Assembly (NCBI RefSeq): GCF_008831285.2
Contig: NC_045142.1
Location: 4,657,501-4,721,500, forward strand
Source of the DNA: Nymphaea colorata
Taxonomy: Eukaryota; Streptophyta; Magnoliopsida; Nymphaeales; Nymphaeaceae
Direction: 5' to 3'
Length of the DNA: 64,000 nt
Shown here: positions 1,043 through 62,963 of the stretch, in pieces
Position numbering within the stretch: position 1 is the stretch's first letter
Layout: each line of letters begins with the position of its first letter
Position numbers and translations under genes: made by a program
The notes under the pieces: generated by a model
Told to the model about the DNA's origin: nothing
Seen by the model: only the letters and a program-made list of their open reading frames with translations
Databases searched by the model: none

Positions 1043-2442
1043 ATGAAGAATTCATTTCTCATTCTCTCCCTGCTGATGCTCACTGTTAACATGATTCATG
1101 TACTTTCGCAGGGTAAGTCTCCTAGTTTCCCTTACTAATCATGTTATAGGTTATCCTGAACGGGTTGGTGTAATGGATGGTATAAGCAATCTGTCTCTAT
1201 TTTGAGCTCTCGATGTGTTTGCAAAAGAAGGTACTTGTATGGGAGTTGAAGTGTAGTGGGATGAATCTCCAACAAACCTGATACTTCAGAAGATAGTGAC
1301 AAAGGTGAGGGTTCGGTCATCTTGCTGGGTGGTAGTGACAAAGATTTTTTATTCTTCATTAAATTATGTTTGTACATACAAATATACATATTTTTTGTTA
1401 ATCTTTAGATTTTTCGACATCATGCTCCATCGAAACTGATTATATGCACCGTTTTCATGTACAAACAAATTGTGCACTAAGCAGTATAATAACCAAAATA
1501 CTCTTAGCCACTAAAAATTTGAAACACCTATTCGTGTTTATGTTCTTACCACCGTCGTTTGAATAAGGGCTGCAGGCTAATCTTTTGTTAATTCTCGATT
1601 CTCTTTTGTTGATCAGGCGAACAGACACTCTACATAGCATGCGGGATTGCAACAGATTCTGTCCGTGATGATCACGGCAACACGTGGGTACCGGACGTCG
1701 GTGACATCAATTCTGGAGAACCTAAAATTGTTTCGCGGCAGAGTAATGATATGCCATTTCTGAGAACTGTCCGTGAGTTCCCCGGAGGGCCGGAGATGGC
1801 CCTCACTGCTACAAAATTCCACTACCTGGTCAGTCTGGCCTGGGTCTAATCAATGTGACTGCCTACTTCATTTACGACAACTACGATGGAAAAAGCACGC
1901 CACCAACCTTTCTGCTCCAGATCCAAAAAGTTAACGAGTTGACCGTTGAGACTGCTCCAAGTGGTGTCAAGTAGTATTCGGGGGCCTAACGGATTCTCGG
2001 AAGAAATGACAACTCCGTCTGCCTAAAAGGCGAAACTGGAGGAGGCGTGCCCTTCATTTCTGCTATGAAAATAGTTTACCCGTAAGGAGCATCAAGTGGA
2101 GAAGGGATATTTATTTTGAAAACATTGACATATAAAATTTTGTATCCGCTCCTACTCATGTCTAGAGGAGTGAAGGCATCGAAGTCATTGACAGTAAACT
2201 GTGATGCTTATTTTCTTGTTCTACTTCATGCTACATGCAGGACAAGTACAACGCTCATTAACCAACCTACGCCTGTTCAACAATCTAGCTCGTCTTCTAC
2301 TTCAACCAGTAAAGGGACAAAATCCTTTATGGTGCGTGGAAATGGTAAAGAAGGTGTGTTGAATTTTCTGGTGATCTTGTGGCTATCTATTTCATTCTTC
2401 GCATGGTAAACTCGAGCAAGAGGAGGCGGCAAGCGCTCGCAG
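1043..2442 (+). pseudogene. gene A: single-malectin membrane protein, pseudogene
   Basis: Three exons are visible: 1043-1112 (signal peptide starting MKNSFLILSLLML, donor GGTAAG), 1617-2081 (malectin-like) and 2241-2442 (Ser/Thr-rich stalk and TM). Exon 2 starts well (EQTLYIACG, then FLRTVREFP) but shifts frame near 1785-1812. The original frame stops at 1847-1849. The shifted frame keeps the family signature (NYDG, PPTFLLQI, PFISAM) but has stops at 1972-1974 and 1987-1989. In exon 3 the frame runs through a hydrophobic segment and stops at 2407-2409, just after the membrane span. Splice sites and phases match gene C. If expressed, it would make a short secreted fragment of the malectin lobe. 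No kinase exon follows. It is best read as a recently disabled copy of the A/B pair. Confidence 0.8.
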
Positions 2443-6443: not shown

Positions 6444-7754
6444 ATGAAGAAATCATTTCTCATTCTCTCCCCGTTGATGCTCACTCTTAACATCGTTTAT
6501 GTGCTTTCTCAGGGTAAGCTTTTTAATTCCCTTTGCTAATGGCTGTTGTAGAATAAGGACATCGGTAATGATACGGAGAAATCCCACCGGTATTGAAAGC
6601 ATACAAACTTAACACCCTGCAGAGATGAAAGGAAGGGTGTGGGTTTTTGGCCTTTATATGTACATATATAAAAATTTTTTAGGCTATGAAAGTTTGATGG
6701 TTGAATTTTATTTTCACAAAATTACGTATGTTTGTACATAAAAATATACACTTTTCTGTTAATCCTTAGTTTTTTTTCTTTACATCGCGTGATCAGAGAA
6801 GCTATTTGTACACGTGTTCATGTTCTAATCGTCCATTGAATAAGGACTGGCTAAATCTTTTCTTCGTTCTCGATTCTCTTTTTTGTGATCAGGCGAACAG
6901 GCACTCAACATATCCTGCGGGACAAGCAAGAAGCACCGAGGGGTTGACGTACCTTGCATTTCTGATCTAAATATAGTTGTGGCCCTCTCTAATGGCAGCA
7001 GGTAAGGAGCATTAACTTGGGGAGGGAGTTTTTTTTTTTTCTTTTTGACGTGTGCCGATATTTGAACTGTACAATGGGTTGAGCTAGGTTACCTTTTGAG
7101 GAAGTCATCTTGATCATATTGAAGAGTGCTAACCTTTGGATTATAGGTGCCATTATGAGGTCAAGTGGCCCTTTTTTGGTTCTCTCTCGCTCTCACCATA
7201 GAAAAAGAATATGGGGTTCCCTCCCGTGTGCATTCTAATTGATTTTGATGAAGTTATGATCCAAATTTTGCTGGGACACAGACTGAAATTAAGAAGCCTA
7301 TTAATGTAAAAAAAAAAAAAAACAGGACTTTTCTCTTGAGGGCCCAACCCAACAACAGCTAGTGCTAAATAAAATTGCTGAAAGTTTTTTCACAAAGACC
7401 CATTACGTTTTGTAACATTTTGAAAAGGATCAATTAAAATTTTGTATGCGCTCCTACTCGTGTCCAGCGGGGGAGAAGGCTTCGAAGACGTGGATAGTAA
7501 ACCGTGGGGTTTATTTTGTTGTTCTACGTGATGCTACATGCAGGCCACGTCCACCAAAAGGTCAGGATGCTTCACTCCACAAACCACCGACCACCGGAAA
7601 GGCAGCTGGGAAGATTGGCGGGGGGATTGTCGGCAGTATAGTGACCATTCTTGGGGCTATCTTTTGCTGTCGGCGCAAGGGAAAGTCGAGCGGGGAGGAG
7701 GAGGCGGGTCAAAAACAAGCGCCCGCAGGTAACTCTCCTTTCTCTCCAACCTAA
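6444..7754 (+). CDS. gene B: short membrane protein, malectin core deleted in frame
   Basis: Exons: 6444-6513 (signal peptide, MKKSFLILSPLML), 6893-7001 (remnant malectin exon, 109 nt) and 7544 onward (stalk and TM). Exon 2 keeps only the start of the malectin lobe (EQALNISCG) and a degenerate form of its end (VPCISDLNIVV). The middle, about 350 nt compared with gene C, is gone. Entry and exit phases (1 and 2) are unchanged, so the frame continues into exon 3: a Pro/Lys-rich stalk, a membrane span around GGGIVGSIVTILGAIF, then CCRRK and an acidic/Gln-rich tail. Reading through the donor at 7729 ends at 7754, giving 129 residues. Splicing to an acceptor near 7786 would give a longer, low-complexity tail. 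It can hardly bind carbohydrate as a malectin domain. It could be a pseudogene that happens to be open, or a minimal membrane peptide. Confidence 0.6.
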
Positions 7755-9430
7755 TGTTAACGTTACAGGGAAGGCCCCCGTGCTACAAATTTTAAGGCGC
7801 CTTCCAACCTCTTCAAAGAAAAATCAGGAGGTATCTTTAAGAAGCGGAAGCCTTTCTTTCTTTCTTTCTTTCTTTCTTTTTACCCTGTTATATACGACTG
7901 CTTCGTGTGTGTATATATATATACATGAGAGAGAGAGAGAGAGAGGCGATTGGGACTTTTCGCATACTTCATTCGAATAGCGGGTCTCCTGTGGCAAACT
8001 TTAACCACATAATACTACCACATTCAGGCGAACAAAAAAATGTGAATGGCTGAAATTTAAAACATAAATCGGGTGACTGTAATTAAAAAGTTCGTTTTTG
8101 CTTAAAATTAAGGGTATGGCCCAACCAGTTGCATGAGTCAGAATTTTTTTTAGTGTGGGGCATTGTTGCAGAGAAGTATTCATTTTAAAAGGGGCACAAC
8201 ATGAATAAGTAATTCAAAGACATCTATATAAAAATAAATAAAAATTTTGTTGTTGACGTGAGCAGTTACCCATGCCAGCTTATATATAGCTCCCATACTA
8301 AGCAAGCAAGCATAGAACCTGTGGTCTTCTCCTTCTTTGTCCCACATCCCCATTTTATAAATTCATCCCATTTAATCATTACAGGTTAAGGATAAGTGGG
8401 TAGTTCTCATCATCATGGTACCGAAAAATACATGTCATGGTGGTGTCCTTGGTGGACACCGAATAAAATATACCTAGGTAGAACTACATATCCAGGCTTA
8501 AAACTACTGGGTATTAGTATTGGATACCTTTTTGATGTATTTTTTTATTTTAATTTTCATTTATCCCATTTGTTTGGTTTTTATGGAACTTTGAACCATT
8601 GAAAAGTAAATAAGCAAAAAAAAAAAAAATCCAACATTAAAATTCCACTTAATTGTTTGGTAGAACTTTAAGGCTCCTATTAAAGTTCTAAAATGACTCC
8701 AAAACTCTCCACACAAAACTGCGGTCTTTGTGGCTCACAATACAATAACTTATGGAAAAACCATGTTATGTTGACTAAGTTGCTTTTGGGCTTCTCATGG
8801 CAACCACAAATCCATTCTTTTAAATATATCTGCATCGATCATCGGAAAATGATTTGCCGATCAACACACCTTTTTTTGCTTTTACAAAAAAATGAAGCCA
8901 ATTGCATGGTTAATTTGTGCACGGCTTCTTTGGCAATTTTGGAATAAATATTTGGTTGTGACAAATTAACCTTCTCGGATGAACTTTAAACGGTGCTCCT
9001 CCAAAAATAGGAGGTGAGAAGTTCCTTCGTCCATTACTACTCCTATGCTTTCAAGCATTTGTTCTTCCACGTCCTATGAATTCTTTATCTTGGCGTGCTT
9101 ACTTACAAATTGCTTCATCCCTGGAACTCAATGTACAGATGTTGAAATAGGGAAGGCGTCTGATCCTGAAAAGAAAAACATAGATGAACTTCCTATGCTA
9201 AACAAATGAAGGGAATTGCTGTATATTCAAGCAAATGTAACTGGTCGTGCCTTTTGAAGGTGCATTCCAAGTGGAGCTGAAGGTTTACGCCGTGTTTATT
9301 AGTGTTTGATCATGGGATTTGTAGGTCGAAGGCAAGTATTGTACGTTAAAATTGTGTACATTGAATAAAGAAAGACATGTACCTTAAGAGGAATGAGAGC
9401 AGAGGAATCCAAATACAATGTCACCAAATC
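7755..9430. repeat. 3' flank of gene B, duplicate of the flank of gene A
   Basis: Bases 8540-9430 align with about 2665-3560 after gene A, including a tract near 8790-8830 on cat-ggcaaccacaaatcc-type sequence and the minus-strand relic frame near 8990-9145. Bases 7755-8540 contain a (TTTC)n run near 7853-7880, a (GA)n run at 7927-7946 and nothing coding. Confidence 0.5.
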
Positions 9431-14733: not shown

Positions 14734-14741
14734 CTATAAGA
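14734..14741 (+). promoter_or_regulatory. TATA-like box of gene C
   Basis: CTATAAGA lies about 70 bases before the start codon at 14809, a spacing similar to that of the TATA-like box of gene A. Inferred from position only. Confidence 0.4.
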
Positions 14742-14808
14742 ACAACCAGATTGGGAGGTTCATTCAGACAAACCGTCCTCTTTTCAAGCTTCTTAGTTAT
14801 TATTGCCG

Positions 14809-17800
14809 ATGGGGAAACCATTTCTCATTCTCTCCCTCCTAACGCTCACGCTTAAGATCCTTCATGTGTCTTCTCAAGGTAAGTCTTCTTCTCTCTTTTT
14901 TTTTCCCTTTTCTTAATTTTTCTTAAAACCTAAATGGAAAATGATCCAAAGGTCCATTATAACTTGGCTCACCATCCCCACAATGATTTTTCCAGTTTGT
15001 ACCCAACCCCAACTTAATTTTCAAAACGAAAATGTTCTTGTTTAGGGACCCTTGTAGTAATTTTTAAAAAACGTAATTTCTCCCTGCCAAGAAAAAATTT
15101 TTTCACTCCGGAATTGCAATCCCCATCTTTAGGACAGACTCGCCCATTCTATGGCTCAAACCGTAACTAGAAAATTATTTTCCCTCTAAATTGTGGTGAG
15201 CAGCGAGCTTCAAGCTTAACAAGGACAACAGGATGAGAAAGCTCAAACAACAAAATGACGAGTGGGACTCGATCTAGGGTCTTCACATTGACATTTGACA
15301 GCTTTTGATTTCCCTCCCATCCTCCTAGCTAGATCTCTTATGTGATTCCGTGTAGTTTAAAAATAAATTGCTTAGGTTTATTCTCTTGCATAACACTCAA
15401 TGCAGTACCATTGTTTTGTATGGAATGACGTTTTCCTAAATAATAACACTTGTTTAGTCCTTGTACAAACCACTAATTATTGGACTCCAAAATAATAATA
15501 ATAATAAATAAAGAAGCCTTGAATTTGAAATCTTGAATAATGGTCCGCATGATATGAGATTGCTAGGATCACAAATCCGTGGATTTAAGATTGGACATCC
15601 CCATTTGATCTTAAATCTATGGTTTTTAGCATGCAATTTGCTGTTGAGATGCTCTCAAAATACACTTTTGAATGCAGCCTTTGATTGAAGATCCGCGGCC
15701 ATCAAATGCAAGCTATAAGTCCAAAACTCTTTTCTCATTGCAAGGGACCAAACTAATTAGGTGTGTACATCGATAGTACCAAAAAGACTTGGAAAAAATT
15801 GAGAAAGACAAATAACTGATTAGGCAATTAACAAGTCACTGTTCAAGTTTTCATGACCGTTAGAAAATAGTGAATCAACTTTCGAAAAAACTATAAATAA
15901 AACAACGCCTGAGTGGAAAACATGAAGTGGAGGAGTAATTTATAAAATTAACTTTCTTATTCAAATTATCTCCTATTGTTCATTTTTTTCCTTTATCTTT
16001 TTCAGAGAGACAATTTTGATTAAGAGGGATAACCTTTCCTATTTAGAGGCATAGTTTCTCCCGAAAGTTGAACACTTAATCTACAATGCTTTAACAAAGT
16101 TGGAGGGCTCTTTTCATGTTATGTCGTTACTATGAGAAGGCATGTTCCCACTTTTTAGTACGAAAATAGCATTTTGGTATTTTTACAGAGTGAATCTTTT
16201 CATGCTCGAAAAGGTATCTTTCATTTAAGTAGGAGAAGCATTTTGTTCATTTCCAGACCATAATGCATAGCCCATATTGGGAGTCACGACATATAACCTG
16301 CACCCTAAAGTTGAACATTAATTTCTCATTTGCTTAAAGTTAGTGGCTTTTATATCTTTTAAAAAAATTTAAGAAATACTTTTTAGTTCCTTTGTGAAGA
16401 AAAGGATTTTAAAGGGAAAAAATGGCCCTATCTTGGCCATGGCCTTTCTTTCCCCTTAATTTTTGACCTTTAAAACTTTATAAAAGTAAATTTAATTTGA
16501 TCTTCCATTGTACAAGCTCACCAAAAATTTCTATCCTTTCAGTACATCGTCATATTTCTTACCAATTAGGTAGAGTTGCATATACCTGTTATCAAGGAAG
16601 TGGAAGATAGCCATGATCAAGGAAGTGAAAGTTGGTCCTGGTCGACCTACAGAAACCAGCGCCTGATGTACGTCAATATTAGAACATGCATGCAGAACCA
16701 TGACCTCATTAATTTGTTAGATGTTCAGCAATATTGTTAAAATCGATTGGTTCTTAAATTGATTCCGTAGGTTGCGTTTGATAGCCTTGGTTCTTAGATC
16801 TGAGTCAAAAGATCCTCAATTTAAACAAATTGAAGATCTCTGTAATGTGGATCTTAAATCCATTAGATGTTAAAAGCCATGGATTTAAGGTCGGGTTTTA
16901 AGGGGTGGGTGGGTGTCGGACCTTAAATTAAATCTACGACCGCTGATCTCAGATCCTCAGAAAAATAATTCAAAGAATTGGCACAAGAAAATCTAGGTAG
17001 CCAAATGCATCAACGTTTAAAACCATATATAATAAGTTTTTAAACAAGAAAAATTCAGGCCCATTTGATCGCCTGTGGCCATTCTTTTCTTCACTAAATT
17101 GGGTAATCGTTTCTTAATGCTTCTGCGCACTCTCGTTCGTTTTGGGCTCTCGTTATTCAGGGGTTCAGGCACTCAACTTAGCGTGTGGGGCGACTGCTTC
17201 CTTCACTGATCCTTATGGGAATCAATGGGTGCCGGATTACCAGTTCATTGGATCTGGCTCCACTGCATCGGTTCAGTTTACGAGCCCAGATGCTCCATTC
17301 CTGTCCACCGTCCGTTACTTCCCTTATGGAAGCATGAACTGCTACGGAATCGGTGGTGTGACTCTGGGGGCTACAATCAAAGTCATTGCCATCTTCCAGT
17401 ATGGTAATTACGATGGCTTGGCACTGCCACCTTCCTTTCTGCTCCAAATCGATGGCGGTGGTTGGACAAGCGTTCAGACTTCAGAGGGTCTGGTAGCGTA
17501 CTCGCTCACCTTTCGGGCTGTGGAGGGCGCGGTCAGTGTTTGCCTTGCCCCGGACAGCACTCGACGCATCCCCTTCATTTCTGCTATACGAGTACTTGAA
17601 GCTGGCGCCGATTCAAGCACGTACGTAGCACCAACTCTCCCGTTCTTTCTTTTCTTTCATTACTTTTGGCTCTCTTCTAAGCTTGTTTTTCTTCTTTGTT
17701 GCCCATGCAAGCAAGGTTCGAACCAGAATTTTTTTCATACAACCTTAAGTATATAAAACTCATTCAGTTTTTGTTTTGAAGAGTGGTAGGCCGTGAGGCA

Positions 17801-20172
17801 ATGACCCGAGTCTCGTGATACTGGCCTAAACTCAAGTCCATTTGAGTTCAACCATTAAATTTAGGTTTCAGAATGAACTCCATGGATCATTCGCCCCATG
17901 GAATCCGCCCCTGCAAGCAAGGGAAATAAGGAGTGATCTCCTTCTTTCTTGAACTGTTAGTTGCTTGGGCCTGATTTTCTTATTTGTCTCTCAAGCAAGG
18001 GAATTAAGGAGTGAGCTTCTTCTTCCTGGAGCTTGGCTTGCTTTTCGTCTTTGTCGCACAAGGGGAATTAAGGAGTGAGCCCCTTCTTACTGGAGCTTGG
18101 CTTGCTTTTCGTCTTTGTCGGCATTTTGATGATTTTCATGTTTATTAGGGAACAAAAAAAAAAAAAAAACTTTTGAACGTACGTTTAGTTACAAAATATT
18201 TTAGATCAGATGAATTTGGTGAAAAGCTTCCCCTATCATTTTTTCTGCATGATCTAAAGTTGTTAATGGATTTTCTCATGGAAAAAAAAAGTAACGTCTA
18301 AAAAATATTTGACTCAATTACACGTTTTTAATAAATGGAATTTGATAAGCACATTTATCAATTCAACTTAAAAGAAAGCGCTTATAGGCATAATTTGTGC
18401 AATGGGCAACTAGGATGTGATATTCAGTTTGGCCCATAATGACTTAAATCCCATGGCTGGTATGACTTCGTTGAGGGTCGCTTCAATCTTGAAGCCAAAA
18501 TATTATGGTGCAAAGTCCATCCGACGTCCATATGATCAACTTTTTGTACGATGAGGTGCATGTCCCACTTATAGTTTTTATTTATTTATTTATTTTATAT
18601 ATGCATATACATATAATGACATTGGTTATCCAGAATCACCAACTATCCAACCAGGGCCGTCCATTTGCTTTAGACTGATGAGAGAGAAAAAAAGAGAAAA
18701 ATATATGAATTAATATTAGATCACATTTTTCTCTTTGTTTTTTACTTAACCATTCATCTTGTTAGATCAAACGATCCTATTTAGACGGCTAGGTTGAAAA
18801 GATAGAGTCACCATTCAATTTTAGCCATTGTCGCAGTCTTCCATGTGTTTAGGGTATCATGGGAAGTAGATACCGAACTTTGTTTCTAGGCAAGTTGGTG
18901 CTTATTTTCTCGTTGGACTTGATGCTACATGCAGGCAAGATGGTAGTTCTGATCCTGGTTCAAGTTCAAGTAGTCAAGTTCCATCTGAAGAAAGGGTAAA
19001 ATTCTCTAGTTCTTCAAAGGTGCGTGCAAAGGGAAAATTAGGCGGACTGATTTATCTGTGCTCCCTCATACCTGGTGGGTTCGGTGTTGCTGTTATTATC
19101 TTAATCATTGTTTATCTGATAAAAAAGAACAAGATGAGGAGGGCAGAAATACAAGCACAATTGGATGCAGGTAACTACATCTTTCTCAAAATGTAAAAAT
19201 GAAGAGACAGGCGGTGCCTATATGTATATGGGTACTGTAGTTTTATGAAAAATTAAGATTAGAAGTATTTATTGCTAAGAATGTAACTACATAGGGGTCG
19301 AATGCAGGAGTGGGTCTTTTGGACCTGAAGACCCATGGTGCCCTGATTTGCATTGTCAATGAAAATCGAGGGATGGCTATGAGACCGACTTGCATGTTTT
19401 GGGGGTAGATGGCTCAGTGCCTTCCCATCTCCCCAACAATAAGGGGGTATATGCCTTAGAAAGGTGTTTGAAAATCATCAAACAATGGATAGAAAGCACC
19501 AATAACAAGACAGTAATCAAATGACTCTTAAGGGAAGCAACCTAGTAACTTGTACTGGATGAATGAGACCCTAATATGCTAGACTTGGTAGAAATTCTCT
19601 AGCCATTAATAATTTTTAATGAGATCAAATGGTGGAAATTAAGTCGAAAAGAAATGGGCAACCTACTTATATTTTTAAAAAACCAAAGTAAACTTTAAAT
19701 GAGGAAAACTATGAGTTTCCTTAATCGAGACCGCTTGTGGCCTCCTTGGGAGGTATTTCAATCTCTTGAAAATAAATACATTTAGGTTTACATGTTTTAA
19801 ACTTCATTTCACCATCTAAACTCCCTAAAATCGACAGCTACATAATTGCATATGAGGGTCTCATAGCCACCAATTTTCTTCTCTCTCTTTCAATATATAT
19901 ATATATATCTATATATCTATATTAATGTGACCATACATTTAAATTTTACTCTGAAAATGAAGACTATATATTCAAATGTTTGACTGGAGAAAATAGGGCA
20001 ACGAATCTTCTCCGTTGTCCTCATTTTAAATTTTTAATTCTTATTTAAAACCATTGGATTGTTTGTTGTTTCTAACTTTCCACCAATGGATTATAATTTC
20101 TATACACTGAAAAGCAGCAGGATTTCTGATCGTGCAGAGAACACAGATTCAGGAGCGAGTAACGAAGCATGA
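14809..20172 (+). CDS. gene C: malectin-like single-pass membrane protein without kinase
   Basis: Four exons join in one frame of 266 codons plus stop: 14809-14878, 17161-17620, 18935-19170 and 20138-20172, all GT..AG, with phases 1, 2 and 1. Residues 1-23 are a signal peptide (MGKPFLILSLLTLTLKIL). Residues 24-177 are one malectin-like lobe with ALNLACGA, STVRYFPYGSMNCY, YGNYDG, VSVCLAPD and PFISAIRV. Residues 178-212 are a Ser-rich stalk. A membrane span lies within 215-239, followed by KKNKMRR and an acidic tail ending SNEA. Malectin-like lobes in plant receptors sit outside the cell and bind cell-wall glycans or peptides together with partners. This protein has only the first of the usual two lobes, no LRR, no GDPC motif and no kinase, so it would need a partner to signal. 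It is the only complete member of its group here. Introns 1 and 2 and the last intron are long and shared with gene D. Confidence 0.82.
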
Positions 20173-20640: not shown

Positions 20641-20747
20641 GCAAGCCTTCTTGCATTTCTGTTTGGGCTCTTCTTTGTGATAGTTACTTCCTGCATTCGA
20701 CCATGGCTGGTTCCTCCTAAGACAACTTTTGGGTTTCTTGAAAAGTC
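20173..20747. other. 3' flank of gene C
   Basis: Probable 3' untranslated and flanking sequence, conserved with 27812-28266 after gene D up to about 20620. The open frame on the plus strand here (20169-20486) starts inside the last codons of gene C and differs by indels in the D copy, so it is not taken as coding. Confidence 0.5.
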
Positions 20748-24867: not shown

Positions 24868-27516
24868 GGGATCAGGCACTCATCAACATAGCATGTGGGG
24901 CGACTGCTTCCTTCACTGATCCTGATGGGAATCAATGGGTGGGGGATGACCAGTTCATTGCATCTGGCTCCACTGCATCGGTTCAGTTTACGAGCCTAAA
25001 GGCTCCGTTCCTGTCCACCGTCCGTTACTTCCCTTATGGAAGCATGAATTGCTACAGCATCGGTGGTGTGACTCAGGGGGCAGCAATCAAAGTCATTGCC
25101 TTCTTCCAGTATGGTGATTACGATAGCTTGGCACTGCCACCTACCTTTCTGCTCAAAATCGATAGCGGTGGTTGGACAAGCGTTCAGACTTCAGTGGATC
25201 TGGTAGCGAAGATGCTCACCTATCGGGCTGTGGCGAACGCGGTCAGTGTTTGCCTTGCCCCGGACAGCACTCGACGCATCCCCTTCATTTCTGCTATACA
25301 AGTACTAAGCACGTATGTAGCACCAACTCTTCCCTCCCTTTCTTTCTTTTCTTTCATTACTTTTGGCTCTCTCTTAAGCTTGGTTTTCTTTTTTCTTTTT
25401 CTTTTTCTTGTTGCTCAAGCAAACAAGGGCGGAAGCAGATTTTTTTTTTTTTTGGTAAACATTAAATATACAAAAGTCATTCAATTTTTGTTTTGAAGAG
25501 TGGTAGGCCATTTAAGTCCAACCATTAAATTAAGATTTCAGGATAAACTCCATGGATCATACGCCTCATGGAATCCGCCCCTCCAAGCAAGGGAAATAAG
25601 GAGTGAGCTCCTTCTTCCTTCAACTGTTAGTTGCTTAGGCCTGATTTTCTTATTTGTCGCTCAAGCAAGGGAATTAAGGAGTGAGCTCCTTCTTCCTGGA
25701 GCTGGGATTGCTTTTCGTCTTTGTCGCCTAAGGGAGCTCCTTCTTACTCGAGCTTGGCTTGCCTTTCGTCTTTTGTCGGCATTATGATGATTTTCATGTT
25801 TATTAGGGAACATAAAAAAAAAACTTTTGAACGTACGCTTTAGTTACTAAATATTCTAGATCAGATGAATTTGGTGAAAAGCTTCCACTATCATTTTTTC
25901 TGCATGATCTTAAGTTGTTAATGGACATTCTCCTGGAAAAAAAGGGTAACGTCTAAAAAGTAATTGACTCAATCATATTTTTTTTAATAAACGGAATTTG
26001 ATAAGCACATTTACCAATTCAACTTAAAGAAAAACGCTTATTGGCATAATTTGTGCAATGGGCAACTACGATGTGATATTCAGTTTGGTCCATAATGACT
26101 TAAACCCCATGCCTAGTATGACTTCCTTGAGGGTCGCTTCAATCTTGAAGCCAAAATATTATGGTGCAAAGTCCATCCGACGTCCATTGGATCAACTCTT
26201 TGTACGATGAGGTGCATGTCCCACTTACGTTTAATATATATATATAATGACTCTGGTTATCTGGAATCACCCAAATATCAAACCAGGGCTGTCCATCTGC
26301 TTCTGACTGATGAGAAAGAAAAAAAAGGAGAAAAATATATGAATCAATATTAGATAACAAAAATGTCTTACATTTTTCTCTTTGTTTTTCACTTTACCAT
26401 TCATCATGTTAGATCAAATGTATCTAGTTAAATGGTTGGGTTGGAAAGATAGAGTAAGATATATATATATATATGTCAGTTTGAACATGTGTGTTGGCTT
26501 TAAATTTGACTTGCCACAAATAAAGAATATGGAGGCCATAAGCTGTCTTCCATGTGTTTTGGGAGTCAAGTGAAGTAGATACCGAGCTTAGTTTCTAGGC
26601 AAGTTGTGCTTATTTTCTTGTTGGACTTGATGCTACATGCAGGCAAGATAATAATCCTAATCCTGGTCCAAGTCCAGATATTGACGTTTCACATGGAGAA
26701 AGGGTAAAAGTAAAGGTGCGCGCAAAGGGAAAATATGGTGGACTGATTTATCTGTTCTCCCTCATACCTGGTGGATTCGTTGTTGCTGTTATTATCTTAT
26801 TCGTTGCTTATCTGATAAGAAGGAACAGGATGAGGAGGGCAGAAATACAAGCAAATTTGGATGCAGGTAACCGCAGTTTTATGAAAACTTAACATTAGAA
26901 GCAATTATAGGAATGTAACTGATAGGGGTCGAACGCAGGAGTGGGTCTTTTGGACCTGAACACCCATGGTGACCTGATTTGCATTGTCAATGAAAATCGA
27001 GGGATGGCTATGCGACCGACTTGCATGTTATGGGGGTAGATGGCTCAGTGCCTTCCCATCTCTCCAACAGCAAGGGGTATATGCCTTAGGAAGGTGTTTG
27101 AAAATCATCAAACAATGGATAGAAAACACCAATAACAAAACAGTTATAAAAATGCCTCTTAAGGGAAGCAACCTAATAACTTGTTCTGGATGAATGAGAC
27201 TCTCATATGCTAAACTTGGTAGAAATTCTCTAGCCATTGATTTTTAATGAGATCAGATGGTGGAAATTAAGTCGAAAAGAAAAAGACAACCTAATTGTAT
27301 TTTAGAAAGTTCAAAATATCCTTCAAATGAGGAAAAGTATGAGTTTCCTTAAACGAGACCGCTTGTGGCCTCCTTGGGAGGTATTTCAATCTCTTGAAAA
27401 TAAATACATTTAGGTTTCCATGTTTTAAACTTCTTTTCACCATCTAATCTCTCTAAAATCGACAGCTACATAATTGCATATGAGGGTCTCATAGCTACCA
27501 ATTTTCTTCTCTCTCT

Positions 27517-27585
<69 letters not shown>

Positions 27586-27811
27586 TATGGCCATACTTCT
27601 AAAGTTTATATTCAAATATTTGACTGGAGAAAATAGGCATGGAATCTTCTCCGTTGTCCTCATTTTTAAATCTTAATTCTTATTTAAAACCATTGGGCTA
27701 TTTGTTGTTTCTAACTTTCCACCAATGGACTATAATTTCTATACACTGAAAAGCAGCAGGATTTCTGATCGTGCAGAGAACTCAGATTCAGGAGAGAATA
27801 ACGAAGCATGA
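24868..27811 (+). CDS. gene D: malectin-like membrane protein, first exon missing
   Basis: Exons 24868-25312 (malectin lobe), 26643-26866 (stalk and TM) and 27777-27811 (tail, stop TGA) are intact, in frame and in the same phases as gene C. The lobe has LINIACGA, STVRYFPYGSMNCY, YGDYDS, VSVCLAPD and PFISAIQV. Two residues of the usual NYDG motif have changed. The membrane segment lies around SLIPGGFVVAVIILFVAYL, followed by IRRNRMRR. No 70-nt signal-peptide exon is visible upstream: the matching position holds the GC-rich segment ending at 22564. Without a new first exon the protein would lack its secretion signal. Splicing from exon 1 of gene C into this exon 2 would be in phase (1 to 1). 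It may be silent, or driven by an unrecognised upstream exon. Coding quality of the three exons is good, so loss of exon 1 looks recent. Confidence 0.65.
27520..27582. repeat. (AT)n microsatellite in the last intron of gene D
   Basis: About 31 AT units. The same intron position in gene C (about 19890-19920) has a much shorter, interrupted run. Confidence 0.9.
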
Positions 27812-37326: not shown

Positions 37327-38504
37327 TTAAGCTTCTGACTTTCTAATGGATGTCCTTGGTGATTTGGGCACAGGATGAGATGTTTCAGTTGAAGACTCTG
37401 AAGTAATCACAACTTCTATAGCTGAAACTTCGAGCTCCTCGGAACCAGCCTCCATCTCCATCTCCATTGCCTGATTCAAGTCATTCAGAATCTTACACAT
37501 GTGTGGCCTCTTTGCAGAACTCCGTGCAGTACATGCGATTGCTACCTCTACAACCTTTTGCATAGAATTCATTTTATGCTGCCCTTTAATCCTTGGGTCA
37601 ACAATGCTATCTATTTCACCACTCACAATATTTGATGTCGCCCATTGAACAATATGAAAGTACTGCTCGGGGGTGCCGAATTTAGCTGGGTGGCCGCAAA
37701 TAAGCTCAAAAAGAACAATACCAAAGCTATAAACATCACTCTTTTTGGTGAGAATGCTTGTTTCGGAATACCTGCGAGACAGATGCACGATAAACCTTCC
37801 TTAGAGTTAATCCCACGAACAAAAAAAATTGTACTCCTTTCTCTTAGAAGGTAGAAGAGTAGTTCTAGTGGCTTGCTTTTATCGTGTATCTAATAGCTTA
37901 TTCTACCAACAAATGACCAGTTATACACCATAGAACCTACATTCTAGAGGGTACCTAGGGATATGCAATATCTATATATTCAATTACAATTTCCTAGGTT
38001 TTAGATTTTTGAGGATCAGCAGCCCCATTTAGCAATTTTGTCCTCTTGATGCTATTCAATTAGTGCTTTTTTAGCTTCTTTTATTTTCTTCCTGAATATA
38101 ACTCGACGATACCTTCTCATTTTAATTTATAGTTATTTTTTAAATATTCATAGAATGACTTCTCTAAATCAAATAGTTGAAACATGCAACATGAGTAAAA
38201 TGCATGCACAGATTATCTGAAAGTAACGCATTAATCATATACTTGTGCATAATGGTGTCCATGCATAGTCATAACAAGCAACTTTAGGTTCTTTCTTAGT
38301 ACAAAGTCAATAGCTCATATATAGGTCTCAGTTGGAAGCAGAGTATGTGATAATTTATTCATTGTGATCCACTTGCAGAATTTGGTAGTCAATTAAGCAT
38401 GTAGCAGCATGTAATAACCAAAATTGCAGTTCACACGTAGCCAACAGCTACGCTTTCCTATGTCATGTGTTTGTGTGTACTCACATACATATATATAAAT
38501 ATAA

Positions 38505-38544
<40 letters not shown>

Positions 38545-41500
38545 TTTACCCCAAGCATCAAGTCACATGGAGCCAAAAATCACAATAGTTGGCCTTGCCA
38601 ACATGATGCACTCGACGAACCTATCTTGGCATGGCGTGGGCCATAAGAGCGCTTGAATATTTAGAAAAGGTGTAATAGTTTAACAGAAAAAACATACTCC
38701 GGATCAATGTATCCAGGGGTGCCAGCAATCCCGGTTGATGTTTGAGTCTTCTCATCAGCCCTAGAAATCCCAAAATCTGCTAGCTTGGCTTCTAGTCGTT
38801 CATTAAGAAGGATGTTTGTAGTCTTTACATCTCTATGAATGATGGCTGGTTGGCAACCTGAGTGTAGATACTCCAAACCTGAATCTCATGAACAAGCTAT
38901 ATAAGCATTGGCTAATGGATGATAAAGACGTTAAGACTACTGAAACCAAAGGGCAGGGCCTTGCATACCTATTGCAACATCCAAAGCTATTTGCAGCCGC
39001 TTCTTCCATGTTAAGGGTGTTGTTGTGGTTTTCCTGCCTACAAACAACAATTGTGACCTCTTACTAGTTAATTTATGATGTATCACTATTACGTTCAAAA
39101 CGGCATTAAGCATTCAATAAAGATTTGGTGGGTTTAAGAAAAAAAAAATTTCAAGTTCTAGAAGGATATATATATATATATATATATACATATACGTGTG
39201 TGTGTGTGTGTATGAGAGGGTAGAACAATATCTTACTTGCTTAGACATTTTCTTACTGACAATTATTAGCCCCATTGGTCTTCTGGAGTTAGGTAGCATG
39301 TCAACTTTTGGTGATAGGAAATAGATTGTTAGCTCTTCAATTTAAATTCACCATATGTTGTTTGGTCTGCTGAAAAAATCCATGCTATAATCCACTCACG
39401 AGGTGGAATATGATCATGTTTTTCTTCTTTTAATTATAGCTTTCTAGCTTCGGCCATGCCACTTATTAATCATATACATCTAATCTGAAATACCATCCAT
39501 CTCACCAAAAGCTTGGCAACTGCTTTTTTTAGCTTGAATATATGAGTACCAAAGTTTTTAATTTCTGATCAAATTTTTCCAATTCCATAAGCTATTTTTT
39601 GGCTGACCCTTGAAGAAATTCACTTATGCAAGCACTACAAGGATTTGTGTAAACGAGGGTTGGCGGGAGGTCCAGCCTTTAGCCAAATAAGGGTTCACCA
39701 AGAGGCTTAGCTTGAAGATCTATGCGTGGAGGAAAAGATGAAGATAAATTAGGTTGGTGAGAGGCGGCGGTAGAGAAGCCTTGAACAAGAAGTTCTAAAT
39801 AAAGTGAGAAACATTTATCTTTTTTAGGGTTATAATGAGTATGTAAAGCTTATCATGTGAAAGCCTTTGCCTATGAATACGTAGGTACCCAAGTTTGTAA
39901 GGTATGGCTCCAAAAAAGAAAGAGAGAAAAAAGAGAGTTTCAAGGGTTGTACTAGTGCTTCTTTGGACATAGTAATAAGAAAGAGTTTGCGGTGGAGGTA
40001 GACTCATGGTTGAGCCACCTTAATTCTGTTTTCCTCTTTTTTGCCCAAGTTCTTGTGTGTTGCTTCATACTTTGTTCCTTTGGCCAAAAGTATAACATAG
40101 TGTGCAGTGGAGTTTGTCTTCCTCACAAGTATCAAAGAAAACAGTATGATCAAGTTGACTATATATGGAAGACAAGTACCAAATCAGTTACCAGCAAATA
40201 GTTTCACTAAAAGTTAAATGTATGTGTCAATATTCTATATTTTCATGGATGATAAAGGTTGTGATGCTAATATTGGTCCTTGAAGGATTATATTCTAAAT
40301 TATGGCGACAATAAAAGAACAAAATCTTCCATTAGTACTAGACAAATGAGCTTCCATATTTCAGCTAGGCAAGAAGTGAGAAGCCTTTTGAAGACCAGTT
40401 CTTCGAACTGCCTAACTTCTTAATTAAGTATTCTTATGTGATGAGCACATAATCAGATGCCATGATCAAATGCTTATAAAGAGCTGTTAGGCAAATACTT
40501 ATGTTATATGCATGTTCATTAACATATTTTTTCAACTTATTGCAGGGCATGATTTGCATATTGTTTACATGATTTATTTATTATGCTAAATTCATGATAT
40601 AATATAGAAAATGAAATTTAGCTATGTCTGTACCTGATAAGAGGCCTCTTAAGCTTCCATTCTGCATGTACTCGTAGAGCACAATCATGTTCATTCCTTC
40701 ATCACAATATCCAACAAATGGGACAAGGTTTTTGTGATGCACTGTTGCTAACAACTTGACCTGAAATGTTGCACATGGTAAACTTGACCTCCTCATATTT
40801 TAATGGAAATAAAACAAGCATAAATAATTAAAACAATAAAGGATAACTCCACTCTAACCTCTGCAACAAATTCTTTAGGTCCTCGTTGGTGCAAATCTTT
40901 CAATACTTTGACTGCAACTTTTTTGCCACTATTAAGGCACCCATAATAAACAGAAGCTGATCCTCCTTCAGCAATAATGGTTTCAAAGTTACATGTGATC
41001 TTCACAATCTCTTCATGGGTGAATCCATGGTTAGGCACTAGCTGCATCCATCCAGTCTGTTGCTTCGTCTGATTCTCTACAATTTCACATAAAAATTCTT
41101 TAATGAATTAAGCCTTCAGTCTGTGATGTGTCGTTTCCATGTGTTGCCAAATTGTTTTTTGAGCCATTGCAGAGTTAACGGTTTCCATTCCATCTAATTT
41201 CACAAAGAAACATAATGCAAACAACTGATTTTGAATGCCTATTTGTTTAGGAGTAGAATTACTTGCTTCAACTTAAGGATATGGTGCCCATGGGAACTAG
41301 ACAATGAATGTCCTCCTGATGGCCATTGCATGTTTCCCGTATGCCAGCCGCTTTTGAGTCTGTGTATATATGCAGTAGTTCTAAAATACTTTTCTTTTTT
41401 GTTCTAAAAGAAGATGTGAAAATGTGTTAGATACACACATGGACCTCATGCAGCTATGATCTATGTGTCAATTTTCTGTTGATAAAGCATAACCAAAAAA

Positions 41501-42104
41501 TTAGATCTGGCTAGGCAATTATCAACATAACACGCACAAATGCTCAAAAAGGTTTTGAGTAACCAGAAACGTTCTGATTTCTAAAGTAGGAGGCCTCTTT
41601 CAGCCTTTCAAGGGGAAGTGGCTTGGCCTATATGCTAGAGGGAGCTGGAAACTCATGGTAGTTATATAGCCATTAATTTAAATGGACAATATTGAGGCAC
41701 ATTCAGAAATAAAATTACTTACCTATATTATTCACAACCACAACATTAGTAGGTGATTGCTCAGGACGTTGGCCTCGAAGGCATGCATAAACAATATAAC
41801 CAACTAGCAATAGAAGTAAGACAGCTGAGCCGACTGATACTCCAATTATGATCGGCTTCACACTTCTTCTGCCTTCTCTTGTGGGTGGACTTGGCTTGTT
41901 TGGGCTTGGCTTGGATTCATTGAGGTTGTTTCCCCCTGTACTGAAAACAAAGATAATTAAGGACATTTAAACCATGCAATGGACGAAGCACCATCAACTG
42001 GTTGCAAATATCATATTTTTAGTTTGTTCATTCTCATGGCCTCTTTGACGCCCCGGAGAAGTTATCCAAGCTCTCTATGCTTGCCTCTCTCTCTCTCTCT
42101 CTCT

Positions 42105-42160
<56 letters not shown>

Positions 42161-45100
42161 TACACCGGGTATGCTCACAAAGGTGCATTGCTTCCTTTGT
42201 ACAGTCCTTACTTTAGTTTTATTTTTCTGCCTGCCAACGATGCCGGTAGGGATCCGGTGAATTTGTTGTCTGCTAGGTTCCTGCAATCGAACAATGGAAA
42301 TTCCAACATAATAATGGCTCAATGGAGATTAACCATAGTTGCAGATTCATACTTCACGAGTGCATTCAGATAAAGAAGCAAAATATTCAATACATTGCAA
42401 TTTTTAAACAAGTAATTAATAAAAACATGGTGACCCTTCTTTTTAAGGAAACAACTCCATATTGACCATATCCTCATTCCCTGTAAGAAAAATAATAGAT
42501 TTCTGCAAGAAATATGGTCACTTTATTAAGGATGCATAGAGTGCCTTGAGAAACAAGCAGAACCGAAGAACACATATTTGGTCATAGTGCCTGATTCATT
42601 TGATAGCTTCAACTCAAGTACTAGTTTAAGCAGTCCCAGTTCGTCTATGTTACAAAGATTGCATTCCTGAGTAGGCTTCCAAGAAATTGATCATAGCCTC
42701 ACCTAATTAGCTGGAGCTGAAACTCATCGTCTAGCGTCTCTGTCTTGAGCTTTAGGTCACAAGTTCTCATTTGGCTCATAAATCAAAATGGGTGGGCTTA
42801 GGATTGTAGAAAAAAGTATAGGTGATCGACAAATTGATAAAAGAAATAAAATTTAATGGCCGGTTTGTATGACAATAGAGGATGAAGTGCTTGAATCACA
42901 AACACGGAAACTATTCATAAACATTACTTCTCTTTAACTGATGAACTTGACTTTAAAGCTTAAATGAGACAAGTAGATAATTCATAATTGGCTTACTAGG
43001 TTCTGTTCAGCCTATTTACTTACTGCGTTAGGCCAAAATGAGCTTGTCACTAGCCAAACCTATTTGAAATGTGAGATACAGTTCTTTATTCTTTGATAAT
43101 CAATAAAAGGTGGGGACCCTACTCCCAGCAGTGTTACACTAGCAATGTAAGTTGCAGCTATAAAAAGAGTTCGGCTACACATTCCATGGGTAGTGGTGTT
43201 ATAATTAAGAATATTTTTTTTTACATTCTTTGAAGACAGAAGAACACTTTGGCCTCGACGACTTATGCCAATGTTTGGTGAGCATCTCCTCTTTCCAGAA
43301 ACAGGGCATTCTTGGAGTAGCATAGAACAAATACCAAACGCCACCATAAATTATCAGGTCGACCGGCACGGTATCACTTCCTCTAGAGGTTCTAGACTTA
43401 CCTTCATGTGGAGTTCTTCCGGTGACATATTCTGTGTAAGCTCTCCATTGATCTTGCAGCCATTAACGTAAGGAGTTCTTTCAGCATAGGGGCTGGTAGG
43501 TGGTCGGTCTTTATTTTAAATCTCTAAAGCATCAACTCTTTATGATAGAGGGGCCAATGATACACAAGTAAAAGTCTGATGTGGGCAGCGCGTCAAGGCA
43601 GTGAAAGTAAGCCTTATAACCTAGAGAAAGTGGAGACAGTATTTCTATTTAATCGAGGAACATTTGGTCCGCCTTCCTCTGTTGGGCCCCACCAGCTTTG
43701 GAGCTAATGGGGTAAAGGAAGGGGGGAGCTTCATTACAATTAAAAGAAAACACATGGGTGACAGCATAGCTTTCCAGCAAGCAATCAAGCTTAATTCTGT
43801 AGTAAAAAGTGTTTGGACTCAAACTGACAAAACAGAAAACTTGGTTTCATGTGAACTGGCTTTCATGTATTTAGCCTTCTTCTGCCTATAAACTTACAGC
43901 TCTTTCAAGAAAGGAAATCTCCCTAAGAACTCTGGGATCTGACCGTTCAAGCTGTTGTTACTGAGATCACTGCAAAATCAAATGGCATTTAGTGAAACTC
44001 CGTGTGTATATATATATATATATATATATAAAAGTGGAAACCGAAGCATGACTGTGTTTTATATATATAAGTGGAAACCGAAGCAGGACTGTGTTTTACT
44101 CACATTATCTCAAGCGCAGTCAGGCCACTGAAGTCTGGAAGGGTACCGATCAAGCTCAACCCGCTAAGGTGACTTAAAAAGCAAAAGAGAGGGGCAACAT
44201 ACTCAAAAGATGCCTTAGGATCAAAGTATTAGTCTTGCTGTGAGAAGGAAAAAGATTTTGCAATTTAAATTAATGGCTGGATTTTTCATAGGTACAATAT
44301 CACAAAATTGAAAACCTCTACCAGTTAAAAAAAAAATAAATCCTAAAAATAAATATAAAAAATGTAAGAATGAAATGTAGAAATGAAAAATGTGGAAGGA
44401 ATGCCAAAAGAACACGAAACATGTTTTTGGCCTTTTTTTTATTTTGAGTTTTTTTAAAAAGTAATGTTTTTTCGGCTGATCTATTTGGACATATAAAAGA
44501 GGGTTTTTTTTTTCAAAAAATAGGATTTCCTATAACAATAAATCTAAATTATTAACCAACATTTTCATCTATTCTCCTGCTTGAAGCTCAAGATCAGAAT
44601 ATAACGAATAAGCTGTTCGGCAAACACACCATTGGGGTTTTAAAACATTTTTCTTTACACACGTTTCAAACACATGTTTTTTTTTTTTTTTTTGTAATAA
44701 AAAACATGTTGATTTTGAACTTGTCTTTTAAAAACATAATGTATGTTCATTATTATTAATGTTCTAAGAGGAAACTCATAAATTTGTATCCTACTCACAG
44801 TTCAGTAACGCTAGGTGAATCGTTAGCATTGCAGTTGAGCCAATCCCAAGTGGACCCTGCAGGAAGGCATGGATCACCTGCCCATGATTGAAGCTGTTGA
44901 TATTGACCCTGCAACACCTTCAAAGCGTTCACTGCAAATCATGTTGTCAGAAAACCGAACATTTTGTTCAAATTTCTAGTGAAAAGAAATGGTAAAAAGG
45001 ACCACATTAATTCCACAAATATAGCAAATTATTATTATTATTATTATTTGTTGCGTTTTCCTAGAAAAGTAGAAAGCATAGTAATAGAGATCATCTTCCA

Positions 45101-47485
45101 ATTGACGCTCGGAAGACGAGACTGTGAGAGTCGTCGTAGTCTTCGCTGCTGGTGTTATAGCGTCCACTAATGCCAGCCCTGGTATCTATATGAATGCGAA
45201 CCATAAACTAAGTACAGGAAATTGATTCATAAAGTGTGCACTAGTTCCTTATGTGTGCGAGAGAGAGAGAGATACCATCATTTCTGCTAGTTCCGTCAGC
45301 TAGTCCTGTCTTGAGTTTAAAAAGCTCCATGGCATTGAGGATGGGAGGAAGGGATGCATCTGGTGTATTGACCAAGGAAATGTTTGATCCAGCAGTCAGT
45401 CTCCGACCACCGTGATTGTAATGCATCCACTCATCTGACTGATAAGGTGGGATTATAGAACCGTAGTCGTTAAGCTTTTCGTCATCAACAAGGAAATCGA
45501 AAGACCTGCTCTTATTCTGGTAAGCTGCCTCTAACACTTCGGAGAAATAGAAACTGTAGTAATATGTATCATCTTCCAAATACAATGGGACTGTCAGAGT
45601 CGTAGCATTGCTCGACGCTGGAGTTATGGCGTGGGCTAATGCCAATCCCGGAATATCCGTGAAGTTTTTTATGAAGCTCATGTTATCTCTCGCCACGGTC
45701 ACGGTGCCGTCGATCTCACCACTTGGATGCCAATAACGGTCATAAGAATCATCAGGATACCTGCCAATCAAACAACCGAGAGTCAACGCGTTTTAGGAAC
45801 CGAGCACAACACAAAACCGGAGAATGCACAGGGCACAACAGAGCAAAGGCAATAAACTCCGGGGAAGGCGCTTCCACTTCCTCGGCCATCTCACAAGGCA
45901 GGGCGTCGGGCAACCACCAGTCCGCTTTTCTTTTTCAGTGTTAAATATTGCAGGTAGTTCGTATGGATGGTAGGCTGAGGTTGTACATCACCTATATATA
46001 TATATAATTTGTACCATAAGATAATTTCCCAGTTTTAGCTGCACAAACATTAGAATTTTAATTATGTACGAATCATAACATCCAAGTACACAATCGTAGA
46101 AACCGTATCTATATGACATCGAAGGTAAAATGTATTTTTCTAGTTATGATGTTAATAAAGTAGTTTAGTCCTATGTTGTAAAAATCGGTTTGCAAACGGA
46201 ATCCTTGAGTCTGCCGATTTAAAGAATTGGCTGTGAATTGGCAAAAACATCAGAAGTTGTTCATACGAGACATGAAACAAATATAAGAAACTCGCTAAAA
46301 AATAAAGTTTTGAGGCTATTTAAAAAACGCGTTACAGTTAATCGAGCTAATTCAGGCTAATTCTGATAACTTTTTCTTTTGCTTCAAAACCTTAAATATT
46401 ATGAAGCGGAAATTAAGAAGTATGAAAAGACTTTTTCAAAACTTTTAATTTCAGCTTATGTACACCGAACTGATTATATGCACTGCTCGGTGTATAAACA
46501 AAAAATTGTGTAGCGGATAATCAAAATACTAGCAATCTTTTTGTGTAAGGTTGGAAAAGAAAAGGTCGTAAAACAGTTGAAAGTCTTACTTTTCGTCTTA
46601 CCTAACAAAGACTTTCGATCCGAATGCTTTCCTCTGCCCCCATAGAAGAAAGTCTTCTTCGCCATCCGTCTCGTACATGCCCGGCTCAAATTCCCTAATT
46701 TCAAGAGCTGAGATGAAAGGAATTTGGTCGGGCGATTTCCGAGCAACACAGACGCTGATGTTTTCTCTCTTGGGTGCATATATTACTTCCCAATAGTAGG
46801 ACTTGTTGGATGAAGTTGTCACGCTGTCCCAATGGTTGCCATCAAATTGAAGATGGAAGGATGGCGGCGATGATTTCCCATCGTAGTTGCCGTAGAAGAA
46901 GGATGCTCGAACCATGTGTTTCCTTCCCCTGTTCACGCCTGGGATCACGTAGCAGCTTTTCTTTTGGGAGGGAAAGTATCGGAGGCTGTTGATCTCTTGT
47001 CCGTACAAATCACTATTATTTTGCACTACGGCAGGTAAAGCACTCCCTGCATTGATATAACTGTCGTCGCCGACCCATTCCATGCCCCGGCTGTCAGTGC
47101 GCGTACCCATTGTTCCACAATCGATGTTCAAGAACACTGGAAAAACAACAAGAAACTCACCAGTTATGATGCATGAAGTGCGCCCTTTCGGGGTGGGTCT
47201 GTAGTTCCTTGAAATCAAACTCCGCCCTTGTATGAAAGCAATCAGTCTCCCGAAACATGCCACTTTTGAAAAACATTAGTTACAGATACGTAGAGGAAGG
47301 AGGGGAACTAAAAGCAGAAATTGTGTGGGAGTATCCATGTGGGTCAATCTGGTGTGGATTTCTTCATTAACGAAGAAACAAAAGAAGCCCAAGGTGAGAT
47401 CATGAGAGCACTTACGTTTGTCAGCAAATCCAGAGAAAATTTGGAGGCCAATGCATAAGCTAAAAAGGAGGGAGCTTGCTGCCAT
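37327..47485 (-). CDS. gene E: malectin-like LRR receptor kinase
   Basis: Thirteen exons join in one frame of 896 codons plus stop: 47485-47416, 47136-46602, 45760-45276, 44931-44799, 44172-44104, 43969-43898, 42280-42212, 41940-41723, 41076-40859, 40760-40634, 39037-38969, 38878-38698 and 37771-37327. Order: signal peptide ([17 protein letters not shown]), malectin-like ectodomain about 24-363 ([17 protein letters not shown], then [13 protein letters not shown]), GDPC motif at 382-385, short LRRs to about 478 ([15 protein letters not shown]), TM segment about 507-530 and kinase from about 570. Catalytic Lys607 (VAVK), HRD with Asp705 and DFG at 723-725 are present. The Gly-rich loop is degenerate: AEGGSAS at 586-592 lacks two of its three glycines. 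This is the LRR-I type of plasma-membrane receptor kinase, which acts in defence, symbiosis or growth signalling. In SYMRK the GDPC motif controls ectodomain cleavage. The ligand is unknown. Confidence 0.92.
38513..38542. repeat. (AT)n microsatellite in a gene E intron
   Basis: An AT run preceded by ATAAAT variants in the intron before the last exon. A second run lies at about 39165-39188. Confidence 0.85.
39633..39660 (+). mobile_element. possible CACTA-type end inside a gene E intron
   Basis: CACTACAAGGATTTGTGTAA resembles the outer end of plant CACTA elements. It is followed by GC-richer sequence with GGGTT repeats. No opposite end is recognised in the same intron, so this is weak. Confidence 0.25.
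42083..42157. repeat. (CT)n microsatellite in a gene E intron
   Basis: Two CT runs split by CCAT, just 3' of the last LRR exon on the coding strand. It generates the Glu/Arg and Leu/Ser open frames seen on the two strands, which are not genes. Gene F has a much shorter CT run at the matching place (about 60256-60280). Confidence 0.9.
44033..44097. repeat. short direct repeat beside the LRR2 splice donor of gene E
   Basis: GTGGAAACCGAAGCATGACT and its near copy begin about 38 bases apart, next to the donor at 44103. Gene F has one copy (about 62119-62147). A local duplication in gene E. Confidence 0.75.
45056..45190 (-). pseudogene. duplicated malectin exon fragment inside a gene E intron
   Basis: On the minus strand this reads [20 protein letters not shown] and then [15 protein letters not shown], matching [20 protein letters not shown] and [15 protein letters not shown] in exon 3 of gene E (about 45540-45655). 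It lies in the intron between exons 3 and 4, lacks the rest of the exon, and is not needed for the frame. A partial tandem duplication of exon 3, or a remnant of another receptor copy. Confidence 0.75.
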
Positions 47486-62500: not shown

Positions 62501-62963
62501 AATGACAGATTTTTTGTAACAATAAATCTAAAGCATGAGCCGACATATTCTCCATTTCTCTCGCAGAGTACAGTGAATAAGGTGTTCGATAAGGACAACA
62601 CTGAGGTTTTGAAACACTTTCCTTTACATACCTGCCAAGAGAAACATGTTTGGTTCTGAATATGGCAGAAATTATGGATGTTTTATGTAAATTAACAATG
62701 AAATGTTTGACAAAATCAGGTTTTTTAATTAAAACATGGTGCTTTCAAACTTGTGTTTTAGGAAAATAATATATGTCCTTCTTATTATTATATTTCTACG
62801 AGGAAACTCATAAATTTGTGTCCTACTCACAGTTCAGTAATGCGTGGTGGATTGTCAGCACTGCAGTTGAGCCAATCCCAAGTGGACCCTGCTGGAAGGC
62901 ATGGATCACCTGCCCATGACTGAAGCTGTTCATATTGACCTTGTAACTCCTCCAACGCCTTCA
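56538..62963 (-). CDS. gene F: malectin-like LRR receptor kinase, 5' part beyond the window
   Basis: Exons found: 62963-62831 (GDPC region), 62220-62152, 62068-61997, 60411-60340 (LRRs), 60065-59881 (TM), 58573-58356, 58259-58133, 57438-57343, 57256-57076 and 56967-56538 (kinase, stop TAG). They join in one frame and match gene E exon for exon in phase; several lengths are identical. [22 protein letters not shown] and a TM around MIVGVSVGMVILFLLLVG are visible. The Gly-rich loop is intact (IGNGGSGSVYYG), and VAVK, HRD and DFG are present, so unlike gene E it has all core catalytic motifs. One kinase exon needs an acceptor 27 bases upstream of the position used in E, giving about nine extra residues, because the equivalent acceptor would run into a stop. 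The signal peptide and malectin exons should lie beyond 64000. Confidence 0.87.

Follow-up and report, generated by a model that had tools for sequence, protein, structure and literature searches.

What might a membrane protein with one malectin-like lobe and no kinase be doing in a plant genome? The question is raised by gene C, one of several related loci (A to D) in a 64,000-nt stretch of Nymphaea colorata DNA (the window: NCBI RefSeq assembly GCF_008831285.2, contig NC_045142.1, positions 4,657,501 to 4,721,500), which also holds the malectin-like leucine-rich repeat (LRR) receptor kinases E and F (Table 1). C and a second gene, G, have the same exon anatomy and shared phases, and eleven loci of this kind were found, in one cluster and on one strand. 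In the copies that can still be read, amino-acid change is in excess of silent change while the frames have stayed open. Our preferred explanation, held with moderate confidence, is that C is a complete representative of a small birth-and-death family whose receptor-like proteins are anchored in the membrane, have a diversifying face and act in trans.

A preliminary description of this DNA had proposed kinase-less, single-lobe membrane proteins without the GDPC motif, and for C this is borne out. A domain search of the 266-residue product finds only the first part of the Pfam family Malectin_like (profile 2-153 of 331, E 2.2e-22), and its translation contains no GDPC motif. Queries with the lobe 2, LRR and kinase exons of E have no plus-strand match within the window (E 1e-3), ruling out LRR or kinase exons downstream of C on its strand; the E query for the GDPC/LRR exon matches E and F alone within the window. 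Translation, Pfam and kinase queries thus agree on a malectin-like ectodomain without a kinase. A 19-residue hydropathy scan gives one strong span (about residues 212-244, peak 221-239) with basic residues after it and, besides this, a single marginal window at residue 84; at the N-terminus, G is above the threshold of 1.6 and C below it. Judged by eye and from its counterparts in A, B and G, exon 1 of C is probably a signal peptide. The predicted product would cross the membrane once: a signal peptide and a single malectin-like lobe would be followed by a short stalk, the membrane span and a short tail. Of the two lobes that make up the module in LRR-type malectin receptor kinases, its lobe would correspond to lobe 1. 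That the lobe belongs with receptor-kinase lobes, as had been assumed, agrees with the tree described below and with 24 residues that are invariant across 10 aligned lobes, core residues being kept; for other loci, the label 'receptor-kinase lobe' rests on the tree, because a kinase exon was seen for E, F and the gene in locus L013 only. As to a malectin-type beta-sandwich, a profile built from the 10 lobes aligns with ANXUR1/2 structures at profile positions 3-91 (best E 1.2e-6), and the lobe of C by itself reaches only E 0.0084.

The genome was searched with the C lobe, giving 107 matches among 112 scored candidates, and G-like copies elsewhere were sought through both this lobe and the C transmembrane (TM) exon; the counts that follow are lower bounds. 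The lobe search yields at least 10 single-lobe loci (14 listed pieces), and at least 11 with B, which is nearly lobeless, falls outside this search and was added separately. All the single-lobe loci found are on the plus strand between 4.62 and 5.11 Mb of C5, on which the window lies. By a hand count among the matches listed, at least 28 lobes are on the minus strand in C5:4.59-5.31 Mb, and every lobe counted in the C5 cluster besides the single-lobe loci has that orientation. At loci L029, L030 and L049-L053 (G, H, J, N, K, L and M), the E kinase queries have minus-strand matches alone (E 1e-3). Two of the 11 single-lobe loci are complete, C and G. The latter, 0.41 Mb from C, reads through open, its last exon having been placed by the acceptor region common to A and B; the two lobes have 74% DNA identity, and the introns show no match except for a few bases at the exon edges.

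Seven of the 11 loci are broken (A, J, K, L, M, H and N). The lobe similarity of A is split over two frames and contains two stop codons, the lobe of J carries a frame change, M has one stop plus gaps, H has a frame change and most of its lobe absent, and N has no first part of the lobe. The same stop and the same frame change are found in K (L051 2622-3066) and L (L052 1830-2160), so a pseudogene was duplicated. Pseudogene M (L053, C5:5074800-5077499) and the minus-strand lobe at C5:5073301-5073732 have a head-to-head arrangement, with approximately 2.3 kb between the lobes. The notion of A to D as four equivalent proteins is refuted by these observations: A is a pseudogene with stops and a frame change, B has 117 lobe codons fewer than C, lost in frame, and D has no signal exon.

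The amino acids of the few readable copies change unusually fast, a trait common among recognition proteins caught in an arms race. Across 521 replacement and 175 silent sites, C and D differ by 63 and 9 changes, respectively (Fisher P 0.009), and the ratio of replacement to silent change (omega) is 2.94 over 232 codons (P 0.0014). There are 3 exon indels between them, all multiples of three, while the aligned intron parts (4106 columns) contain 46 indels, 38 of which are not; 6.5 frame-shifting exon indels are predicted from the introns, and the probability of finding none is 0.0015. Under neutrality, the chance that neither a stop nor a frameshift arises is 0.0002 for the C and D branches together and 0.014 for the D branch alone. 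For the lobes of C, D and G (143 strict columns), omega is 2.0 (P 0.004), and the site test favours model M2a over M1a with a likelihood-ratio statistic (LRT) of 25.8; none of 90 null simulations at omega 1 reaches the observed omega or LRT. About a fifth of these lobe sites have an omega near 0.

As a control, the 35 nearest pairs of other malectin-like lobes in the genome were analysed, 30 of which exceed 75% DNA identity; the five below this value, all with omega below 1, were dropped before the median was taken. Several sequences recur among the 30 pairs, and one pair (with L031) is a 55-codon fragment; the median omega of the 30 is 0.40, with none above 1; one control pair was labelled CrRLK-type from an intronless two-lobe frame. 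Three control sets of five sequences each have omega values of 0.51, 0.43 and 0.30. Taken with the omega and simulations for C, D and G, these controls led us to reject the idea that the lobe evolves like other lobes. Omega of C or G against E is saturated and was discarded.

A conserved core, many fast sites, kept frames and dying copies are what one would expect from a recognition protein exposed to changing pressure. On the explanation we prefer, the gene would be expressed and its product would reach the membrane, where the lobe would keep its core and vary exposed positions to follow a changing partner, perhaps a ligand that is non-self or reproductive, or else the ectodomain of one of the neighbouring kinases. 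Because the protein has no kinase of its own, it would act in trans through a partner, as a co-receptor or decoy for the clustered receptor kinases, which would be the obvious candidates; most sister copies appear to have decayed meanwhile. A more specific version seems to us unlikely: the family would be a hypervariable system for self/non-self or pathogen recognition, in which the single lobe on its kinase-less anchor diversifies so as to bind partners that change and passes the signal to the clustered malectin-like kinases on the opposite strand, giving a division of labour between a variable sensor and a conserved signaller inside one gene cluster. The receptor-like role without signalling of its own that had been put forward earlier may apply, and it gains weight from the selection result, which the preliminary description did not have.

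Several points weigh against the preferred explanation. The genes are known from DNA sequence alone, and action in trans is purely what we infer. Most of the loci are clearly broken, while B is without most of its lobe and D without its first exon. The codon models were run with purpose-written code and not with PAML. The high values for C versus G (omega 1.67, P 0.04) and D versus G (omega 1.89, P 0.02) come from comparisons that are not independent, the C-D lobe alone gives a non-significant omega of 2.15 (P 0.085), and adding four broken copies brings the mean omega to 1.12, which is not different from 1 (P 0.46), with a site-test LRT that is still high (26.0). Site-test signal is also present in two of the three control sets, with 1.6% of sites in one (P 0.0009) and 4.9% in the other (P 0.016). 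Measured against introns, C-D replacement change is only 1.23 times as high (P 0.15), and silent change amounts to about half the intron divergence (P 0.037); because of the latter, part of the C-D omega above 1 comes from few silent changes.

The many broken loci, the absence of exon 1 from D and a C-D replacement rate near that of the introns all favour the view that the single-lobe genes are relics, non-functional fragments of receptor kinases of which C and G are merely unbroken so far. We nevertheless regard this as somewhat unlikely, given how improbable the joint openness of C and D is under neutrality (and even that of D by itself), the independent completeness of G and the fifth or so of lobe sites that hardly change. 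A protein may also be functional without any arms race, for example as an anchored carbohydrate-binding or structural protein under relaxed constraint, like rice OsCBM1, its omega having been pushed up by chance, by a low number of silent changes or by gene conversion. The shortage of C-D silent change fits this, as does the role in drought tolerance reported for a rice protein with a malectin-like domain only (PMC8651890). However, relaxation takes omega to 1 and not to 2, the simulations at omega 1 never reach the observed test, and the other lobes of the genome have a far lower median, so that we consider this account quite unlikely.

Where the single-lobe genes came from is a separate matter. 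The preliminary description derived A to D from an E/F-type gene, largely from exon phases, and the phases themselves are confirmed by the exon models: a 70-nt exon 1 is common to A, B, C and E, the malectin exon leaves in phase 2 in C (460 nt) and E (535 nt), and the TM exon enters in phase 2 and leaves in phase 1 in both (236 and 218 nt). By simple arithmetic, chance agreement of three phases has a probability of about 1 in 27; the match goes beyond chance because G, which is 52% identical in the lobe, repeats the 70-nt first exon and all three phases. The tree comprises 53 lobes, with A, C, D, G, J, K and N as single-lobe rows (A, J, K and N as pieces); L, M, H and a lobe fragment on C8 (L031) were left out. 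The seven rows form one clade (support 100/100) on a stem of 1.1 changes per column, within which A is a very long branch. This clade stands apart from the 26 E/F-type rows (90/96), and its placement next to five C6 lobes and C5_4594/C5_4602 is weakly supported (91/78). The expected nesting of C and D inside the E/F clade is therefore not found in the best tree, though the approximately unbiased (AU) test does not reject kinship: neither a clade of the single-lobe rows with the 26 E/F-type rows (p 0.40) nor one with E and C5_5304 (p 0.156) is rejected. Descent of A to D from an E/F-type gene is thus not supported by the tree.

The last exon of C had been likened, by its start, AGAACACAGA, to the exons that open the kinase in E and F. 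This start does not mark a kinase-type exon, and we reject the reading of the exon as a clipped kinase exon. In B, J and K the tail exon is longer (frames DVEIGKASDPEKKNIDELPMLNK, HVEKQQDIDDHADESSESSQDHLAA and DVEKPQDSFRAEDTVSGKNLEA), beginning at TGTACAG|ATGTTGAAA in B and J and at ATATAG|ACGTTGAAAA in K; its 5' acceptor is not present in C. Exon 4 of C corresponds to the end of this exon (EDTVSGKNLEA in K, ENTDSGASNEA in C), and AGAACACAG of C falls within the stretch that matches B, J and K. The likeness of this exon to kinase exons is best taken as an accident of the lost acceptor. The tail exon of J does share phase 1 entry and a KQQ near its start with the first kinase exon of each of E and F, and these three residues would be suggestive at most of a tie. 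Direct truncation of an E/F-type kinase can claim this motif, the phases shared with E and the AU results, but it has to contend with the lack of nesting in the best tree and the long stem. In addition, the genome search with the C TM exon found C, D and J and returned no TM exon of a kinase gene, the TM exon of G (E 0.77) scoring no better than a match on C9 (E 0.76). We hold truncation to be highly improbable.

In comparison with known systems, the family of C resembles malectin-like LRR receptor kinases, of which E and F are examples, in the lobe 1 sequence, in a first exon of 70 nt as in E, in phases 1 and 2 and in the TM exon running from phase 2 to 1, but has no lobe 2, GDPC motif, LRR or kinase; the lobe exon of C is also 75 nt shorter than that of E and on the opposite strand. 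Its lobes are set apart from the other lobes of the genome by an omega of about 2 in C, D and G. The label LRR-RLK I for E/F-type kinases follows domain order and not a subfamily search. Malectin-like ectodomains without a kinase are known from rice MRLPs, AtRLP4 and flax relatives of RLP4 (PMC8651890, PMC9603095, PMC8121149) and are alike to C in this respect; there, RLP4 has an LRR domain, whereas the family of C has one lobe and no LRR, is bound to a cluster and evolves fast. OsCBM1, with a malectin-like domain only and no kinase (PMC8651890), is likened to C by domain content alone. In the Arabidopsis OAK cluster, malectin-like LRR kinases stand in tandem and sites in their lobes are positively selected (PMC3136440); it is the second lobe of the kinase that varies in OAK, while here it is the first lobe of a kinase-less protein. 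For poplar, missing LRRs in such malectin-like genes have been ascribed to unequal crossing over. A single-lobe, diversifying, cluster-bound malectin-like family was not met in the open-licence literature searched, nor was a paper linking water lilies with malectin-like domains.

Table 1. Features of the window (window positions) and gene G (position on C5).
Feature	Position	Strand	Description
Gene C	14809-20172	+	4 exons, 3 GT-AG introns (6 canonical splice ends), 801 nt, 266 aa
Gene C exon 1	14809..14878	+	70 nt, phase 1 exit, ATG and GT donor; MGKPFLILSLLTLTLKILHVSSQ; probable signal peptide
Gene C exon 2	17161..17620	+	460 nt, phase 2 exit; single malectin-like lobe (Pfam)
Gene C exon 3	18935..19170	+	236 nt, phase 2 to 1; Ser-rich stalk, transmembrane span, basic residues
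Gene C exon 4	20138..20172	+	35 nt; tail ENTDSGASNEA and stop; acceptor predicted from sequence
Gene G	C5:5084318-5087272	+	exons of 70, 499, 245 and 56 nt; 289 aa; phases 1-2-1
Pseudogene A exon 1	1043..1112	+	70 nt
Pseudogene A lobe exon	1617..2081	+	frame change, stop codons
Pseudogene A TM exon	2241..2442	+	stop at 2407-2409 in expected frame (open-reading-frame listing)
Gene B exon 1	6444..6513	+	70 nt
Gene B lobe exon remnant	6893..7001	+	109 nt versus 460 in C
Gene B TM exon	7544..7728	+	exon model
Gene B tail exon	9139..9209	+	DVEIGKASDPEKKNIDELPMLNK and stop
Gene D lobe exon	24868..25312	+	open; D is a tandem duplicate of C that lacks exon 1
Gene D stalk/TM exon	26643..26866	+	open
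Gene D tail exon	27777..27811	+	similarity to C
Gene E	37327..47485	-	malectin-like LRR receptor kinase, used for comparison
Gene E exon 1	47485-47416	-	70 nt
Gene E lobe-1 exon	47136-46602	-	535 nt, phase 2 exit
Gene E lobe-2 exon	from 45760	-	domain search, exon queries
Gene E TM exon	41940-41723	-	218 nt, phase 2 entry, phase 1 exit
Gene E first kinase exon	from 41076	-	exon model
Gene F	56538..62964	-	LRR, TM and kinase exons of second receptor kinase

Among the neighbours of C, B (6444-9209, plus strand) is almost lobeless and yet still open: its introns are GT-AG, and its frame of 144 aa has a signal-like N-terminus, then a hydrophobic span and a tail. D is 86-92% identical to C in its exons and 90-91% in its introns. 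The similarity sets in at 22566, which aligns with base six of C intron 1, and blastn of 13500-21300 against 20900-28400 gives no counterpart of C exon 1 or of the DNA upstream of C before D; since the similarity begins inside intron 1, the signal exon is missing from D. Immediately upstream of that start is a GC-rich repetitive stretch (22160-22560), which was perhaps part of the rearrangement that removed exon 1. Directly downstream of D are open frames on the minus strand (28314-30092) with a resemblance to Copia-type retrotransposon gag and integrase, and frames on the plus strand at 31674-32613 resemble LINE-type reverse transcriptase fragments. A second, partial copy of lobe 2 (45060-45194, minus strand; 62% identical over 45 aa) is found downstream of the lobe-2 exon of E. 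A lobe at C5:4723842-4724261, beyond the window, probably belongs to F.

Kinase-less malectin-like proteins are already known and have been little studied. A cluster in which kinase-less copies diversify and the lobes of their kinase-bearing neighbours are conserved would allow one to ask directly whether half a malectin-like module suffices for partner recognition, and whether receptor-like proteins may take over fast-evolving recognition from receptor kinases.

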